Shown piece by piece: positions 3,868 through 61,724 of a stretch of DNA of 64,000 nt. How positions within the stretch are numbered: position 1 is the stretch's first letter; each line of letters begins with the position of its first letter. A program made the translations under genes and the position numbers. The stretch comes from Okapia johnstoni (taxonomy: Eukaryota; Chordata; Mammalia; Artiodactyla; Giraffidae). The notes beneath the pieces are model-generated. The model searched no databases, had not been told where the DNA came from, and worked only from the letters and a program-made list of their open reading frames with translations. Location of the stretch: NCBI GenBank assembly GCA_024291935.2, contig CM044309.1, positions 34,372,001 through 34,436,000 of the forward strand, given 5' to 3'.

Positions 3868-4812
3868 AGTTCAGCTCAGTCGCTCACTTGTGTCCGACTC
3901 TTTGCAACCCCATGGACTGCAGCATGCCAGGCCTCCCTGTCCATCACCAACTCCTGGAGTTTACTCAAACTCATGTCCATTGTGTCGGTGATACCATCCA
4001 ACCATTTCATCCTCTGTCATCTCCTTCTTCTCTTGCCTTCAACCTTGCCCAGCATCAGGGTCTTTTCAAATGAGTCAGTTCTTCACATCAAGTGGCCAAA
4101 GTATTGGAGTTTCAGCTTCAGCATCAGTCCTTCCAGTGAATATTCAGGACTGATTTCCTTTAGGATGGACTGGTTGGATCTCCTTGCAGTCCAAGGGACT
4201 CTCAAGAGTCTTCTTTAATACCACCTCAAAAGAGTCAATTCTTCGGTGCTCAGCTTTCTTTATAGTCCCAGTCTTACATCCACACATGACTACTGGAAAA
4301 TGCACAGTTTTGACTAAATGGACCTTTGCTGGCCAAGTAATGTCTCTGCTTTTTAATATGCTATCTAGGTTGGTCATAACTTTCCTTCCAAGGAGTAAGC
4401 GTCTTTTAATTTCATGGCTGCAATCACCATCTGCAGTGATTTTGGAGCCCCCCAAAATAAAGTCTGACACTGTTTCCACTGTTTTCCTATATATTTCCCA
4501 TGAAGTGATGGGACTGGTTGCCATGAACTTAGTTTTCTGAATGTTGAGCTTTAAGCCAACTTTTTCACTCTCTTCTTTCACTTTCATCAAGAGGCTTTTT
4601 AGTTCCTCTTCACTTTCTGCCATAAGGGTGGTGTCATCTGCATATCTGAGGTTATTGATATTTCTCCCGGCAATCTTGATTCCAGCTTGTGCTTCTTCCA
4701 GCCCAGCATTTCTCATGATGTACTCTGCATATAAGTTAAATAAGCAGGGTAACAACATATAGCCTTGACGTACTCCTTTCCCGAGTTGGAACCAGTCTGT
4801 TGTTCCATGTAG
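3868..4812 (-). mobile_element. BovB (RTE-class) LINE, 5'-truncated, with reverse-transcriptase remnant
   Basis: Read on the minus strand this is the 3' part of a BovB retrotransposon. The frame at 4144-4758 encodes the thumb side of the reverse transcriptase, with the catalytic YADD motif (LRYADDTTLMAE) and the downstream LNIQKTK, SKITADGDC and DITWPAKVHLVK blocks usual in BovB proteins. The 3' end is the Bov-family tail at about 3868-3900. The 5' part (endonuclease and the fingers of the enzyme) is missing, as in most genomic copies. The frame stays open for 204 codons, which suggests a fairly young insertion. It lies downstream of STMN2 in the same orientation. It is not a functional element, because it lacks the endonuclease and the 5' promoter. 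Confidence 0.93.
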
Positions 4813-4893
4813 GTTAGGAAATTATAACTTTTAGAGGTAGTTGGTATAAGCATGCATGTGAAGCTTTTTGCATGCCAGAATTCATACAAGGAT

Positions 4894-20830: not shown

Positions 20831-21105
20831 CTAGTAGGTGAGTTCCTAAGATTTGCACTGAAGCCTTTTATACATTTGAAAAGCAGGAATCGGCCTCCCT
20901 CAGTCTATTCACTACCGGAAACCCTGACAGTATTCCAGCTGTAAGTCATACTTCAACCACACTGCAGTGCGGGAGACCCTGCGTGTGGGGTTAGGTGCCT
21001 TCCGCATCTGCAGCAGAGTTTAAGTCTCTGATACCAGGTATTTGAGAATTCACTTGCTGTGTGTTGCATATAATGTGCATCTGCTCAGTTCTCTGTTAAG
21101 ATTAC

Positions 21106-21297
21106 CTTTTCCTGCAGACGTTCAATAATAGCAGCTAGGTTTGCCTCACGGTTTTCCTTGATTTGTTCCATCTTCAGGATCAGCTTCTCCTCCGCCATCC
21201 TGCTGAAGTTGTTGTTCTCCTCCAAAGCCTTCTGGAGGACCTCTCGCTCATGCTCCCGCTTCTCCGCCAGCTGTTTCAGCACCTGAGCCTCCTGAGA
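21106..21297 (-). CDS. STMN2: STMN2 exon 4 (residues 97-160), stathmin-like domain
   Basis: 192 bases encode 64 residues starting [17 protein letters not shown] and ending [10 protein letters not shown]. This is the highly charged, uninterrupted alpha helix of the stathmin-like domain, which binds tubulin dimers end to end and promotes microtubule turnover in growth cones. The first residue is Ser97, a known protein kinase A site in stathmin-2. The acceptor is CCTCCCCAG (AG at 21,298-21,299) and the donor is AAG|GTAATC (GT at 21,104-21,105). Both phases are 0. Compared with the human protein as I recall it, residue 129 is Arg instead of Lys ([11 protein letters not shown]), a conservative change. 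The assignment is firm: length, phase and sequence all match stathmin-2 rather than STMN1, STMN3 or STMN4. Confidence 0.97.
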
Positions 21298-23090
21298 CTG
21301 GGGAGGAGAGACACAGCCATCTCAGAATCACCCAGACACAAACCTGGCGGAACAACGGTCCACTGATTCAAAAGAGCATTCTTTTTCAATGAATAGTACT
21401 TCTAGCCTTGAGCATTATTGTCAATTCCCTTCTCATCTTCATGCCTTTGAGTTTTCTATGGAATATGTGAGTTGGGAAAAGTGGTGAGCTGAATTTTCAG
21501 CTGTGAGTCTTTTGGACAGACTTTTAAAGAAGCATTTAACCCTGCTGGAAGAGTTCTTTTTTGTTGTTTTAATGAGTTGCTGCTAAGCATTTATGCAACA
21601 GGGAATGCTGTAATCAATCACTGGATGACAACATCCATGGAAGCCTGAGGAAATGAGGTGAAGATTGGGGCAAGTTCCCGGCTTTTCCCTGCCTCATTGT
21701 TTTTGATCAGCTGTAGGCTCTGCCCTGCAATGAGCCTTTCAACTTTCCCCAGTAAAATTGTCAAATTCACTTTCTTGTTTTATTCTGCACCTACCTCCAC
21801 CCTTTCTTCCCCTGCACCAAACTGTCTTTGGAGACTTGTGAATACTGCAAACTTCATGGCCATGTGGCCACAGACAACAGAAATTCCTTTTATGGACCTG
21901 TCTTGAACACACCAAGGCCACGTGGGTCATCTTTGAAACCCTGAGATTGCTCAGGGATTACAGAAGAATCATCAGAGTCCTGTGTACTCCTTTCCCTCAC
22001 ACCCCCACATTCTATGCACTATAATTCTCCTGCAGCATCAGGAAGCTGAATGGTTCTATATGTTAACAATCACTGGGGTGCTTGGTAAATACACAGAGGC
22101 CTAGTATCCACTTCGAGATTCTAACTCTGTGGTTCTTTGGTGAGACCCAGGAATCTATATTTTTGATAAGCATCCCTTGTGACTGTAATGCAGGCAGTTC
22201 ACAGTCTACTTTTTGAAAAACACACTGGCATGGGCTTTGGTGCCAGACCTGTGTTTAAGTCCTGTGTTGGCTGCCCTGGATATATTAACATCTTTCCACA
22301 TTCATCTTTTCCTCCACAATCAAGCAGCTAAGAGAAGCCTTACCCAATACTGAACTATCCAGGTTTAAGACTAAATTATTACACATCCATCATTCGGGGA
22401 TAATTCCTTGGGATCAGCTGGTCCTCTGAGATGAGCCTTCATAGGAGTAGTTGTAAATGTGAATATATAAACAATGGTAGATCAAAAAATATTCTATGGG
22501 CTAAGTATTGATTACCATTAAAAACATTAATAGACATTTCAGTTGATGGGAGTGGTTGTGGGACCTTACTGGAGAGCTCTTGATGTGTAAAAAATTTGAA
22601 GTCTGAGAGGGGAAGAAACTTCTCTTCAGATAAAATTCTACAGGAATAGTAAAATCATATAACCTTAAGAGTTTTTGCAGATGTGTTTATTCTGACATTT
22701 ACCAGGAATATGTCTAGTGACTCACTGAACATTAAACAGACAGTTTTGGGACTAGCCCCACTTTTTGTTTTAACCCCATGGTAGTTTCACTGACATCTTC
22801 AGTAGACCCAATTTCATTCTTGCTTTGTTACAGCTTGCAAAAATCTAATATGAAAAATGATAAAATATTAATAGAAATTCAAGATCTAATGGAACCCTTC
22901 TGAAAGAAATAAAAAATATTTTCTAGTTTATTCATCCTCCTGCCTCTAGGTGGGACTATTGGTAAAACATCCTGCATTGATTTTGCTTATCTCTTGCTAC
23001 CAGGATTACTGAATTGTGACACAGGGCAAGGGAGACTGGCTAAATGTGTGTGTGTTTCAAGTTTCTCCTGAGAAAAGTCTTCATGGGATT

Positions 23091-32370: not shown

Positions 32371-32452
32371 TCTATTTCCCAAGTCTCCTATAAATGTGTT
32401 ATTATGCTTTCATAATTTAAAAAACAAACAAAAAAACCTATGGAAAAGTTAC

Positions 32453-32625
32453 CTTTCTTCTTTCCTCTGCAGCCTCCAGTTTTTTCTGGATCTCCTCCAG
32501 GGACAGGTCTTTCTTCTTGGGAGAAGCTAAAGTTCGTGGAGCTTCTGAGATGGGAGATGGTGGTTTTAAGATCAGCTCAAAAGCCTGGCCGGAGGCACGC
32601 TTGTTGATTTGCTTCACTTCCATAT
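32453..32625 (-). CDS. STMN2: STMN2 exon 3 (last two bases of codon 39 to residue 96)
   Basis: 173 bases encode [19 protein letters not shown], then the proline/serine-rich regulatory segment and the start of the helix, ending LEAAEERRK. Ser62-Pro and Ser73-Pro (in PPSPIS and LASPKKK) are the known JNK sites that lower tubulin binding and mark the protein for turnover. Ser50 is a known protein kinase A site. The segment around residues 40-58 forms the N-terminal cap of the tubulin-binding region. The acceptor is TCTCAG|AT (AG at 32,626-32,627), the donor is AAG|GTAACT, and the phase is 1 at the 5' side and 0 at the 3' side, consistent with exons 2 and 4. From memory every residue matches human. 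Confidence 0.97.
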
Positions 32626-33130
32626 CTGAGAGATGAATATTTGAGAAGGTTAAGCATATAGAACACAGGCACACGTTTACTTAAATAATTTGCACTCTGG
32701 CAATTAAAATTAGCCTTGTTATTCTGATGAAGATGAATAAAATGCTACATGTGATCATTTGTTTTGAACATATAAGACCTCTTTCTTTAGTATATTTATG
32801 GATCTATTTTAACTGAATAAACATTTACAGTGTTAGGAAATTCAACAATGTCCATAGGGAATTAAATCATGGTAGGCATGCCCAGAAAATAGCCTGACTC
32901 AATTTTATATTAAACTTTATTTTCCTTTTGAATAAACACGAACCTCATCTGAAAATCAAGTAGCACAGATTAAGGTTTATTTATTTTTTTGGAAATCACC
33001 ATGGTTGGAAACATTTGTATGCTAATTAATGAGGAAAATAGCAAAGTCCTCCAGTTCTCACAACTAATCCTATGGTTGGGAATCACAGGAGCTGGGTTAC
33101 AACCAATGTAGCTCCCTGAATGGTTGGAAA

Positions 33131-37772: not shown

Positions 37773-37868
37773 CATCGTAAGTGTACATGTTGATGTTGCG
37801 AGGTTCCGGGTAGAAGCAAGAGCAGATCAGGGACAGCATGGACAGTTCCTTCATTTTTTCCTTGTAGG
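37773..37868 (-). CDS. STMN2: STMN2 exon 2 (residues 8-38 plus split codons 7 and 39)
   Basis: 96 bases encode YKEKMKELSMLSLICSCFY and then PEPRNINMYTYD. This is the membrane-targeting N-terminal extension that separates SCG10 from the cytosolic stathmin-1. Cys22 and Cys24 (CSC) are the known palmitoylation sites that anchor the protein to Golgi-derived vesicles and growth-cone membrane. The acceptor is GTTTCAG|CC (AG at 37,869-37,870) and the donor GATG|GTGAGT (GT at 37,771-37,772). The phase of 1 on both sides matches the missing exon 1, which ends in ATGG, and exon 3. Residue 34 is Met here (NINMYTYD) where I recall Ile in human. Confidence 0.97.
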
Positions 37869-39177: not shown

Positions 39178-39302
39178 TCCAGGCAAGAATACTGGAGTGG
39201 TAGCCATTCCCTTCTCCAGGGTATCTCCCCAAACCAGGGCTCGAACCTGGATCTCCTGCATTGTAGGCAGATTCTTTACCATCTGAGCCACCAGGGAAGC
39301 CC
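39178..39302 (-). mobile_element. Bov-tA-type SINE, tail-truncated
   Basis: Reverse orientation, with only the core and tRNA-like head (ccaggcaagaatactggagt to tttaccatctgagccaccag). Confidence 0.92.
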
Positions 39303-45931: not shown

Positions 45932-46138
45932 GTGTTAGTTGCTCAGCTATGTCTGACTCTTTGCAACCCCATGGATTATAACCCACAAGGCTCCACTGTC
46001 CATGGAATTCTCCAGGCAAGAATATTGGAGTGGGTTGCCATTCCCCTCTGCAGGGGATCTTCCTGACCCAGGGATCAAACCTGGGTCTCCTGCACTGCAG
46101 ACAGATTCTTTACCATGTGAGACATCAGGAAAGGGCCC
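45932..46138 (-). mobile_element. Bov-tA-type SINE
   Basis: Reverse orientation, from tagttgctcagctatgtctg to tttaccatgtgagacatcag. Confidence 0.93.
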
Positions 46139-51042: not shown

Positions 51043-51327
51043 TGCTTCCCTGGTGGCTCAGCTGGTAAAGAATCCACCTGCAATGCAGGAGATCTTGGTT
51101 CGATCCCCGGGTTGGGAAGATCCCCTGGAGAAGAGAATGGCAACCCACTCCAGTATTCTGGCCTGGAGGACTGACTGCCAGCCTCCACTCCATGGGATTT
51201 GCCAGGCAAGAATACTGGAGTGGGTTGCCATTTCCTTCTCCAGGGGATCTTCCCAACCCAGGGATTGAATCTGGGTCTCCTGCATTACAGGCAGGCACTT
51301 TACCAGCTGAGCCACCAGGGAAGCCCA
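51043..51327. mobile_element. two opposed Bov-tA SINEs forming a long inverted repeat
   Basis: A forward SINE head and core (51,043-51,166) faces a reverse core and head (51,202-51,326). The two about 123-base arms are near reverse complements with a spacer of about 35 bases. The tail between them has been largely lost. Confidence 0.94.
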
Positions 51328-52596: not shown

Positions 52597-53012
52597 AGCA
52601 GCAAAAGTGGGTAGACATTTATTCTTTTCAGCTATGCAAGCAAGTCACAAAATTCATTGCTCTCTCCCAATTTATATAGTTTTCTGCAATTCTTCTACTG
52701 ACAACGAATGTGTGTGTGTGCGTTAGTCACTCAGTCATGTCCAACTCTTTGCAACCCCGTGGATTGTAGCCTGCCAGGCTCATCTGTCCATGGAACTCTC
52801 CAGGCAAGAATACTGGAATGTGCTGCCATTTCCTTCTTCAGGGGATCTACGTGACCCAGGGATTGAATCCACACCTCTTGAATTGCAGGCAGATTCTTTA
52901 CCACCTGAGCCACCAAGGAAACCCCAACACACACACAGCAGCAAAAGTGGGTATGCGTTTATTCTTTTCAGCTCTGCAAGCAAGTCATAAAATTCATTGT
53001 TCTCTCCCAAGT
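52597..53012. repeat. 76-bp direct repeat flanking a SINE
   Basis: Copy 1 (52,597-52,672) and copy 2 (52,937-53,012), 340 bases apart, share agcagcaaaagtgggta and ttattcttttcagct, with about half a dozen differences. Confidence 0.9.
52715..52924 (-). mobile_element. Bov-tA-type SINE
   Basis: A reverse-oriented copy between the two direct repeats. It is preceded by a TG run and followed by an AC run, itself an inverted match. Confidence 0.94.
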
Positions 53013-59025: not shown

Positions 59026-59789
59026 GATGAAATCAATAGCTTAAAGTAATTTCTTATAGACACTCTGAAGTTTACTTCTATGCCAGAAAAATGACTCTTG
59101 AAAGCAACCAGCATCGTAAGAAAATTGTTGATTGAAGGACCAATAAGGAAGTTTTTTTGGCTCAGTCTTCAAGGGCCACTGGTTTAGATTTTTTTGTTAT
59201 GTCCTGATGAAGTACACATACAGCTGTAAAGACCGCTGGGATTAAATGTTTAAAACACGTATTACTTTAATAATGCTGTCTTCCTTTTGGAATGTACTAG
59301 GAGTTGCAAAAATTGAAAGCTTCCTAGCTTTTGAGAGACCCTGGAATGGACAGGAGGAACAAAGGAATGGATAACCTTGAGGCTTACTCCAATTTCATGG
59401 AGAAAAACAGCGTATTGCACTACATCTCTGGTCAGCTTTATTTTGGGACCATATTTTTAACGCCCTATTTGGGAAATAGTAAATCTATAATTTGAGATAT
59501 TTCATGCATAGTATCATTTCTATGCATAGTATTTCATGCATAGTATCAGGATAGCATTTCCAGAGATGTGGTAATGTTTGAATGGTCAGCAACCCACAGC
59601 ATGGAAGGACTGACATAGGATATCTTTGATGATATTCCTTGACGGCACATTTCTTTACCTCTAGGTCACCTTTTTAGAAAGGTAGTACTGAATAACAGAA
59701 GTCCCTTATTAGTTTACATAAGCAGATAACACACAATTTGTTTTCAAATATCCATCCATACTCAATAGATTATTAATAATTTGCTAATA

Positions 59790-60153
59790 TGGTATCCAGG
59801 AAGAAATGCTCTTAGATAATTTAGTAAGTGATAAATGCAGGATGTATTGAGAGAAAATTTTAGTGCTGCTAGATCCTCTTGGTTAATTTCTTTAGTGTGT
59901 GGAGTACTGGCAATGAATTAAGTCAATGTGGTAAATGGGGTTACAGACTTTTGCACAACATTCCATAAGTCAAAGGTTCTGAATTGAACTTTTTGGTCTG
60001 CATATTGTTTTGCGAATGACAGGAATGAGCATTATTGATTTGTCATCCTTCTCAACTGTACCACAAGTCACATTCTGTTCTTATACCCACCCAGGTACAC
60101 ACACATGCACAAATTCTTATTTCCACATTCTCCTGAAGGTCTTCTGCTGAGTC
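59790..60153 (-). promoter_or_regulatory. STMN2: Region orthologous to the human STMN2 cryptic exon 2a (TDP-43-repressed)
   Basis: On the sense strand this block starts after a conserved acceptor (ATTGCAG|GACTC, AG at 60,154-60,155) and reads GACTCAGCAGAAGACCTTC, then AAATAAGAATTTGTG, a UG tract, GACTTGTGGTACAGTTGA and AATCAATAATGC. Further on it reads CTCAATACATCC and ATTTCTTCCTGGATACCAT. From memory these blocks follow, in the same order, the human STMN2 intron-1 cryptic exon 2a and its downstream flank. In human neurons TDP-43 binding represses this exon; its loss gives a short polyadenylated transcript and loss of stathmin-2. Read from the expected exon 1 frame, the ruminant exon stays open for 27 codons to a TGA at 60,068-60,070. 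Whether it is ever spliced in ruminants is unknown. Confidence 0.8.
60096..60110 (-). promoter_or_regulatory. UG-rich tract inside the cryptic exon region (candidate TDP-43 site)
   Basis: The sense strand reads GTGCATGTGTGTGTA. TDP-43 prefers UG repeats, and the human exon carries a longer, interrupted UG-rich stretch here. One short (UG)4-type core remains. Confidence 0.55.
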
Positions 60154-61724
60154 CTGCAATATGAATATATTTTAAAAGTCCAATTAAAAGAGAATGGATG
60201 GCACAGAACACATAACTCCCAGAGGAATAAAATCCCTAAGTGTATGAGATTGGAGGTGAAATATTTTGTAAAGATTGCCATAGACTTGAAAATGTTAAGA
60301 CATAATGTTAGAGCTTACTGTGGAAGGTACATATATATCACAGTTTTATATTTCTTAAATCAATGTATTTGGTGGTTAGAATCAGCATCTTCTGGGAACT
60401 TGTTAGGAATGCAGAATATCTGGCTTCAACCAGACCTACTGTATTAAAATTTGCATTTTAATGAAAGTCAGGGGTAATTCACATGCACATTAAATCTGGG
60501 GAGCATAGTAATATGAGCCGATTAAGTATTTTACGGTTGGATTATAACTACATGAAATATAAGAGAAAAAGAATTCCCTACCAAGCAAACGTTTAAAAAA
60601 TCCAACTTTGATAATCCTAAAAATTGGCTTATGCTTATCTGTTTATTCTTATTTCATTAAAATTAACATCAATTTTCTACTAAACTAATAAAACTACTAC
60701 GAGGGGGTACTCAAAAATTACTGAAAGCTGACAAAACATTAGATTTCAATATTTGAGCTGAAATCACACTGGATTTAATTTCAAAGTGATATCCTTTAAA
60801 TGGAAAAAAAAAGCTGAAAAAGTAGGAAACAGAGTAACAGCCAATTGAGGGGGGCGGGGAGCCCTCTCAATATCACATTGTATCTGTCTGCTTTGCCACT
60901 AACTTGCAAGATCCCTGAAGGTGGAGAGTGACATTCAGATGCGTCCACAACAATGAGCACATTTTAAATAAATGAATAAGTAAACAATGTTTTTGTTTAA
61001 TTAATTTATTTAAACATTGAAACATTCTGTACCTATATAATCTTGATATTACTACTGACCACTGTCTACTATGTATCCACTCCCCAAATAATAGAAATGA
61101 CATTACAATAACAATGTAATGATACTAGAAAAGTAAAATCATCAGAGAATTGACCAGGACCTACACCTGCTTCCTGAACTGAACACCTACTTTCAGATTG
61201 TTAAGATGGCTCATTTCATGTCTCCTTGAAAAAGTGCACAAACCCTTTTCATTCAATAGGTTAAGCATGGAATTAACTTATCCAATTAGCCAGTGAATGC
61301 TTCAGGTAAAAGAACTTATTATAATAAATAGCAAATATTTGAAACAGGGCTTAAATAAGCAAGTAAGATTTGCTTGAAAAAGCGAATCTAGTTTTTTGAG
61401 AACATGATTGCCCTCTAGTGGTGTGAAAAGTTAATGCAGGCAACAAGCTTTTCCAGTTGAAGAACCAGCAAAGAGCCTTGGTTCTGGAAACATCTGTGTC
61501 ACTGGCTAATTCTGTATTTTTTTTTCCTTTTTTGAAAATTTCTTGCATTTTTTCATATAAGGTCACAGACTGTGTGACAACAGAGTAATGTGTATTTGTC
61601 TAAGGCCACAGGGGAAACTAGAGTGAATTGGAGTTAAATATCAGCTGCCCGGGGTGACCACACCCAAAAAAGGTAGCCCTCGGCTCTGAGGCCAGCTTCC
61701 TCCAGCCTCTGTGAGCAATGAGCT

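Follow-up and report, generated by a model that had tools for sequence, protein, structure and literature searches.

In Okapia johnstoni, positions 60153 to 60029 on the minus strand are in all likelihood orthologous to human STMN2 exon 2a, judged from published and, beyond 101 bases, assumed human sequence, and they carry an AG directly before the first exon base and a GU run within the exon. All positions refer to the window, i.e., the whole stretch of 64,000 nucleotides that was analyzed. Loss of TDP-43 in ALS and FTD has STMN2 exon 2a as one of its leading products, and the exon is usually regarded as a human or primate feature, mice being without it. The features used in the comparison were as follows.

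60154 to 60173, minus strand: 3' splice site, last 20 intron bases AAAATATATTCATATTGCAG, rough matrix score 3.89
60029 to 60153, minus strand: exon 2a counterpart, well-aligned part, from published human bases 1 to 71 plus assumed human bases
60135 to 60153, minus strand: first conserved block, 18/19 identical to the published human sequence
60110 to 60122, minus strand: conserved block AAATAAGAATTTG, 13/13 identical to the published human sequence
60097 to 60105, minus strand: GU run UGUGUGUGU, candidate TDP-43 site, exon positions 49 to 57
60085 to 60091, minus strand: possible 5' splice site TGG/GTGGGT, last exon base 60091, from a rough matrix
60068 to 60070, minus strand: first in-frame stop, TGA, if read in the exon 2 phase (the TAG of human comes 18 codons earlier)
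59876 to 59896, minus strand: weak block against the assumed human exon end, local alignment at 59896 to 59883
59437 to 59442, minus strand: first AATAAA/ATTAAA after the acceptor, an AATAAA, from a hexamer search
37868 (first base, CCTACAAGG...), minus strand: STMN2 exon 2, from open frames and a human primer match
32625 (first base), minus strand: STMN2 exon 3, Pfam Stathmin PF00836 in frame 32438 to 32680, E 3.7e-23
21297 (first base), minus strand: STMN2 exon 4, Pfam Stathmin PF00836 in frame 21085 to 21321, E 7.8e-23

Exons 2 (AYKEKMKELSMLSLICSCFYPEPRNINMYTYD), 3, and 4 of STMN2 lay in minus-strand stop-to-stop frames. No Pfam family matched the open frame with exon 2; canonical human STMN2 primers, taken from PMC12289307, fell in exon 2 (at 37847) and in exon 3 with 2 mismatches in 20 bases each. 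The first base of the exon 2a counterpart was located 22.3 kb upstream of exon 2 on the sense strand of the gene, and thus in the STMN2 intron before exon 2, the place at which an earlier note on this DNA had expected it. Exon 1 of STMN2 could not be located in the window: the sequence taken as its start had no match, and a published primer (PMC8891020) had at best 6 mismatches in 19 bases. The final 0.75 kb of the window (63.25 to 64.0 kb) was G+C rich, as would be expected near a first exon. Exon 1 probably lies further upstream, beyond the window, in which case the intron holding 60153 would be STMN2 intron 1. Elsewhere in the window, Rfam at gathering thresholds returned three tRNA matches only, none at the exon and all on the minus strand (39226 to 39297, 46060 to 46130, and 51250 to 51321), which we take to be parts of tRNA-derived ruminant SINEs rather than tRNA genes. 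A long open frame on the minus strand (4144 to 4821) matched a reverse transcriptase (PF00078, E 9.7e-15) and is presumably a fragment of a BovB-type LINE. Both kinds of repeat point to a ruminant source for the DNA.

At the acceptor, the minus strand reads ...TATTCATATTGCAG/GACTCAGCAGAAGACCTTCAGGAG... and, at greater length, ...TTTTAAAATATATTCATATTGCAG/GACTCAGCAGAAGACCTTCAGGAGAATGTGGAAATAAGAATTTGTGCATGTGTGTGTACCTGGG..., where the slash marks the boundary and the first exon base after the AG is 60153 in plus-strand coordinates. The human cryptic-exon forward primer GGACTCGGCAGAAGACCTTC, as given in PMC10441763 and PMC12289307, was placed at 60154 with 1 mismatch in 20 bases, while the next best places on both strands of the 64-kb window had 5 mismatches. 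For the last 19 primer bases with at most one mismatch, ∼0.00001 chance matches would be expected in the window. We assume that the first G of this primer belongs to exon 1 and that exon 2a begins at its second base; with the human first base set in this way, the acceptor AG adjoins the homologous first exon base, 60153. The earlier claim of an acceptor followed by an exon 2a-like block was therefore upheld by the AG before 60153 and the near identity of the first 19 bases.

For a longer comparison, the primer was joined to a 93-base NanoString probe for truncated STMN2 from PMC9310392, yielding 101 bases of published human sequence. In a local alignment over the whole window and both strands, these fitted best on the minus strand at 60153 to 60085 (score 56), with human bases 1 to 71 paired (56 identities, 12 mismatches, and 4 gaps). 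The best score on the plus strand was 32, and 200 dinucleotide shuffles gave a mean of 27.2 (standard deviation, 2.5) and a maximum of 42. The score against published exon 2a bases thus exceeded that of every shuffle. Human bases 72 to 101, the GA-rich part, remained unaligned with the window in this local alignment.

Beyond the 101 bases, an assumed human sequence was used, and the later blocks, the ∼100 extra bases, and the comparison of ATTAAA described below hold with respect to that sequence. Against it, positions 60075 to 60029 were identical at 42 of 47 bases, and before the last shared block the window held ∼100 bases more than the human sequence. When this assumed sequence was aligned with MAFFT, the exon end and the GU region were paired differently. 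Hence, of the further blocks said to follow in fixed order, the one at 60075 to 60029 held up against assumed sequence, while that at 59896 to 59883 was weak and was paired differently by MAFFT.

The acceptor at 60153 is canonical in form and weak on a rough matrix (the splice matrices and hexamer lists were approximate): 266 of the 1,744 AGs in the intron part scored at least as high, this site included. The previous AG upstream was 60 bases away, and the surrounding RNA was not predicted to be more stable than its shuffles (z = 0.89; 166/200 folded at least as well). That the acceptor is usable is a prediction. The GU run, nine bases long, comprises two overlapping UGUGUG and is a predicted site of TDP-43 binding. 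In the 26-kb intron part, 27 of 26,092 segments of 40 bases reached the GU-hexamer density of the 60153 site, and at least 6 GU hexamers per 40 bases were present at two separate places only, starting from 60136 and 52966. Among the 266 AGs mentioned above, three had a UGUGUG within 80 bases downstream and two had at least 6 GU hexamers within that distance, the 60153 site being included in both counts. The acceptor is thus not strong, yet to have a GU run paired with it, as here, is uncommon in this intron.

A second pair of acceptor and GU run was present in the same intron at 52930 to 52973 on the minus strand, with TGCAG/A at 52973 and a UG run from 52937. Its acceptor had a higher rough score (6.64) than the exon 2a site. 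It is located at the edge of a SINE-like copy and could represent a candidate cryptic exon specific to the lineage.

The GU run lies close to the position at which human exon 2a binds TDP-43, and it is shorter in the window than in human. In PMC10766724, the human exon 2a TDP-43 site is described as narrow, with three UGUGUG over 22 bases. In the published human exon bases, UGUGUG occurred separately at positions 53, 63, and 71, as against two overlapping copies in 9 bases here. Both sequences share GAATTTG, after which the GU run follows within the exon, and GCATGTGTG; between them, the human sequence was 12 bases longer in a hand-made alignment, in which 21 of 27 paired bases of the GU region agreed.

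A premature poly(A) signal is described for human exon 2a, as is a stop in frame (PMC10336091); the window has an in-frame stop as well, though a later one. The reading phase was taken from exon 2 itself (CC TAC AAG), independently of the exon 1 tail. Entered in this phase, the window translates as GLSRRPSGECGNKNLCMCVYLGGYKNRM to the TGA at 60070 to 60068, which is reached after 28 codons (the split one counted) as opposed to 10 codons before the human TAG. Neither AATAAA nor ATTAAA was found to start between 60153 and 59443, the first 711 bases; only weak variants from an approximate list (ACTAAA, AAGAAA, and AATACA) were present, at 59896, 59892, 59864, 59848, 59825, and 59655. We take the human exon to end with ...GAAATTAAAACAAAAG..., which includes ATTAAA. 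In the local alignment, the window had GAAATTAACC (ATTAAC) opposite this assumed ATTAAA, a pairing that depends on the method. The possible donor at 60091 ranked 22nd among 1,249 GTs of the intron part on the rough matrix, itself included, and together with the acceptor it would delimit a 63-base, in-frame cassette without stops in the entry phase. An imperfect short tandem repeat (59499 to 59548; consensus ATTTCATGCATAGTATC, 3.1 copies) lies ∼600 bases downstream of the acceptor.

The GA-rich stretch is likewise a point of difference from human. Two published human reverse-primer sites within it had their best places in the window elsewhere, with 4 and 6 mismatches in 20 bases. Because these GA-rich sites are without a good place here, the assays in common use for the human cryptic exon should not work in this species. 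As to primers in use, PMC13418377 gives, for hippocampal qPCR of STMN2, the pair that is used elsewhere for the human cryptic exon; if the tissue was from rodents, that pair should fail to quantify Stmn2.

We propose, with a probability of roughly 0.5, that the orthologous exon 2a counterpart acts as a decoy 3' splice site silenced by TDP-43 on the GU run. TDP-43 bound 49 bases into the exon would keep the decoy acceptor silent, and upon its loss exon 1 would be joined to 60153. The resulting transcript would reach its stop at 60070 to 60068 and continue to a poly(A) site further downstream, for which 59442 is the first candidate. Compared with the short terminal exon of human, the outcome would be a short reading frame with a longer 3' end. 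According to a commentary on Baughn 2023 (PMC10336091), it is the 3' splice site and not the poly(A) signal that drives cryptic splicing in human, with TDP-43 acting as a steric block over the GU motif. Since the human 3' splice site is responsible, the acceptor and GU run kept here would be the features that matter for the splicing step.

The main competitor is an inert ancestral intron, orthologous and never spliced in ruminants, to which the human line later added the poly(A) signal, the early stop, and the longer GU element. Alignment between introns of human and ruminants is common even where no function is involved. What speaks against the proposed mechanism largely speaks for this alternative: the weak acceptor, the 711 bases without AATAAA or ATTAAA, the shorter GU element, and the missing GA-rich stretch with human bases 72 to 101 unaligned; the early human stop, not shared here, also counts against the mechanism. 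Moreover, cryptic exons are called poorly conserved beyond primates in PMC12289307. Set against the inert intron is the acceptor AG, which adjoins a rare GU run here as it does in human. We rate an inert intron nearly as high as the decoy acceptor, at somewhat under an even chance. We are clearly more doubtful of the decoy acceptor in its fullest form, in which ruminants would have a working, TDP-43-repressed acceptor and TDP-43 loss in cattle or sheep would lower stathmin-2 as in human ALS. The vulnerability would then be ∼90 million years old and lost in mouse, with only its ending (poly(A) site, stop, or in-frame cassette) differing between lineages.

Two further explanations carry far less weight. 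A ruminant alternative cassette exon, inserting 21 codons via the donor at 60091, would fit the rank of that donor and a length of 63 bases, which is divisible by 3 and holds no stop in the entry phase. However, with 22 donors as good or better across 26 kb, one less than 100 bases away is not very rare, and this one lies six bases beyond the GU run and would presumably be masked by TDP-43 bound there; we therefore consider the cassette improbable. More improbable still is a similarity due to chance or to a repeat, without orthology. It could appeal to the small reference, of whose 101 published bases 71 were aligned, all human sequence beyond the 101 being assumed, but the gene, the strand, and the side of exon 2 all agree, and the real score surpassed the highest of the 200 shuffles by 56 to 42. 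We rejected chance similarity on that score and on the ∼0.00001 primer matches expected, and a repeat-derived exon because positions 59790 to 60300 were, apart from themselves, matched in the window by two short, weak hits only (one of 17 and one of 19 bases, with E 0.32). A 24-base degenerate pattern had 0 matches in a prokaryote genome collection, which was searched for possible mammalian contamination.

Returning to the stretch as a counterpart of exon 2a, the human and ruminant copies match in gene, strand, and register, and for that reason we infer common descent. The exon 2a sequence would then be older than primates and would have been present in the common ancestor of human and ruminants, so that the proposal of a precursor predating the primate lineage was borne out, as an inference from copies in both. 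At the human-ruminant split, the mouse falls with the primates. As it descends from the same ancestor as human and ruminants, its lack of the exon is most simply explained by loss or decay. Taken as a whole, the interpretation of the earlier note stood as regards the STMN2 intron, the alignment with published exon 2a, and the AG, and fell short in that the terminal-exon features (poly(A) hexamer and early TAG) are not shared. It had been silent both on these unshared features and on the GU run, the stronger point in favor of its reading.

In the literature, exon 2a is stated to be absent in mouse (PMC10336091), as is the TDP-43 site of STMN2 (PMC11948778), and PMC8891019 describes STMN2 as likewise not conserved in mouse. 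Cryptic exons in general are called non-conserved between species in PMC13343711. Such statements may hold for a working STMN2 exon, while the sequence reaches beyond primates. The human UNC13A cryptic exon is alike in being a TDP-43-repressed cryptic exon of a neuronal gene. According to PMC8891019, its intron, exon, and splice sites are conserved in primates only, in an alignment of 30 mammals including 27 primates, whereas the STMN2 stretch is recognizable in a ruminant. Among the matches listed, no title dealt with STMN2 exon 2a in mammals other than human or (humanized) mouse, which does not prove its absence in print.

A ruminant counterpart with an acceptor and a GU run would date the origin of exon 2a before the primates and make the mouse the exception. 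It would set the splicing step, whose acceptor and, in a shorter form, GU run are shared, apart from the termination step, whose poly(A) signal and early stop are not, and would point to large animals for testing the event without a humanized gene.
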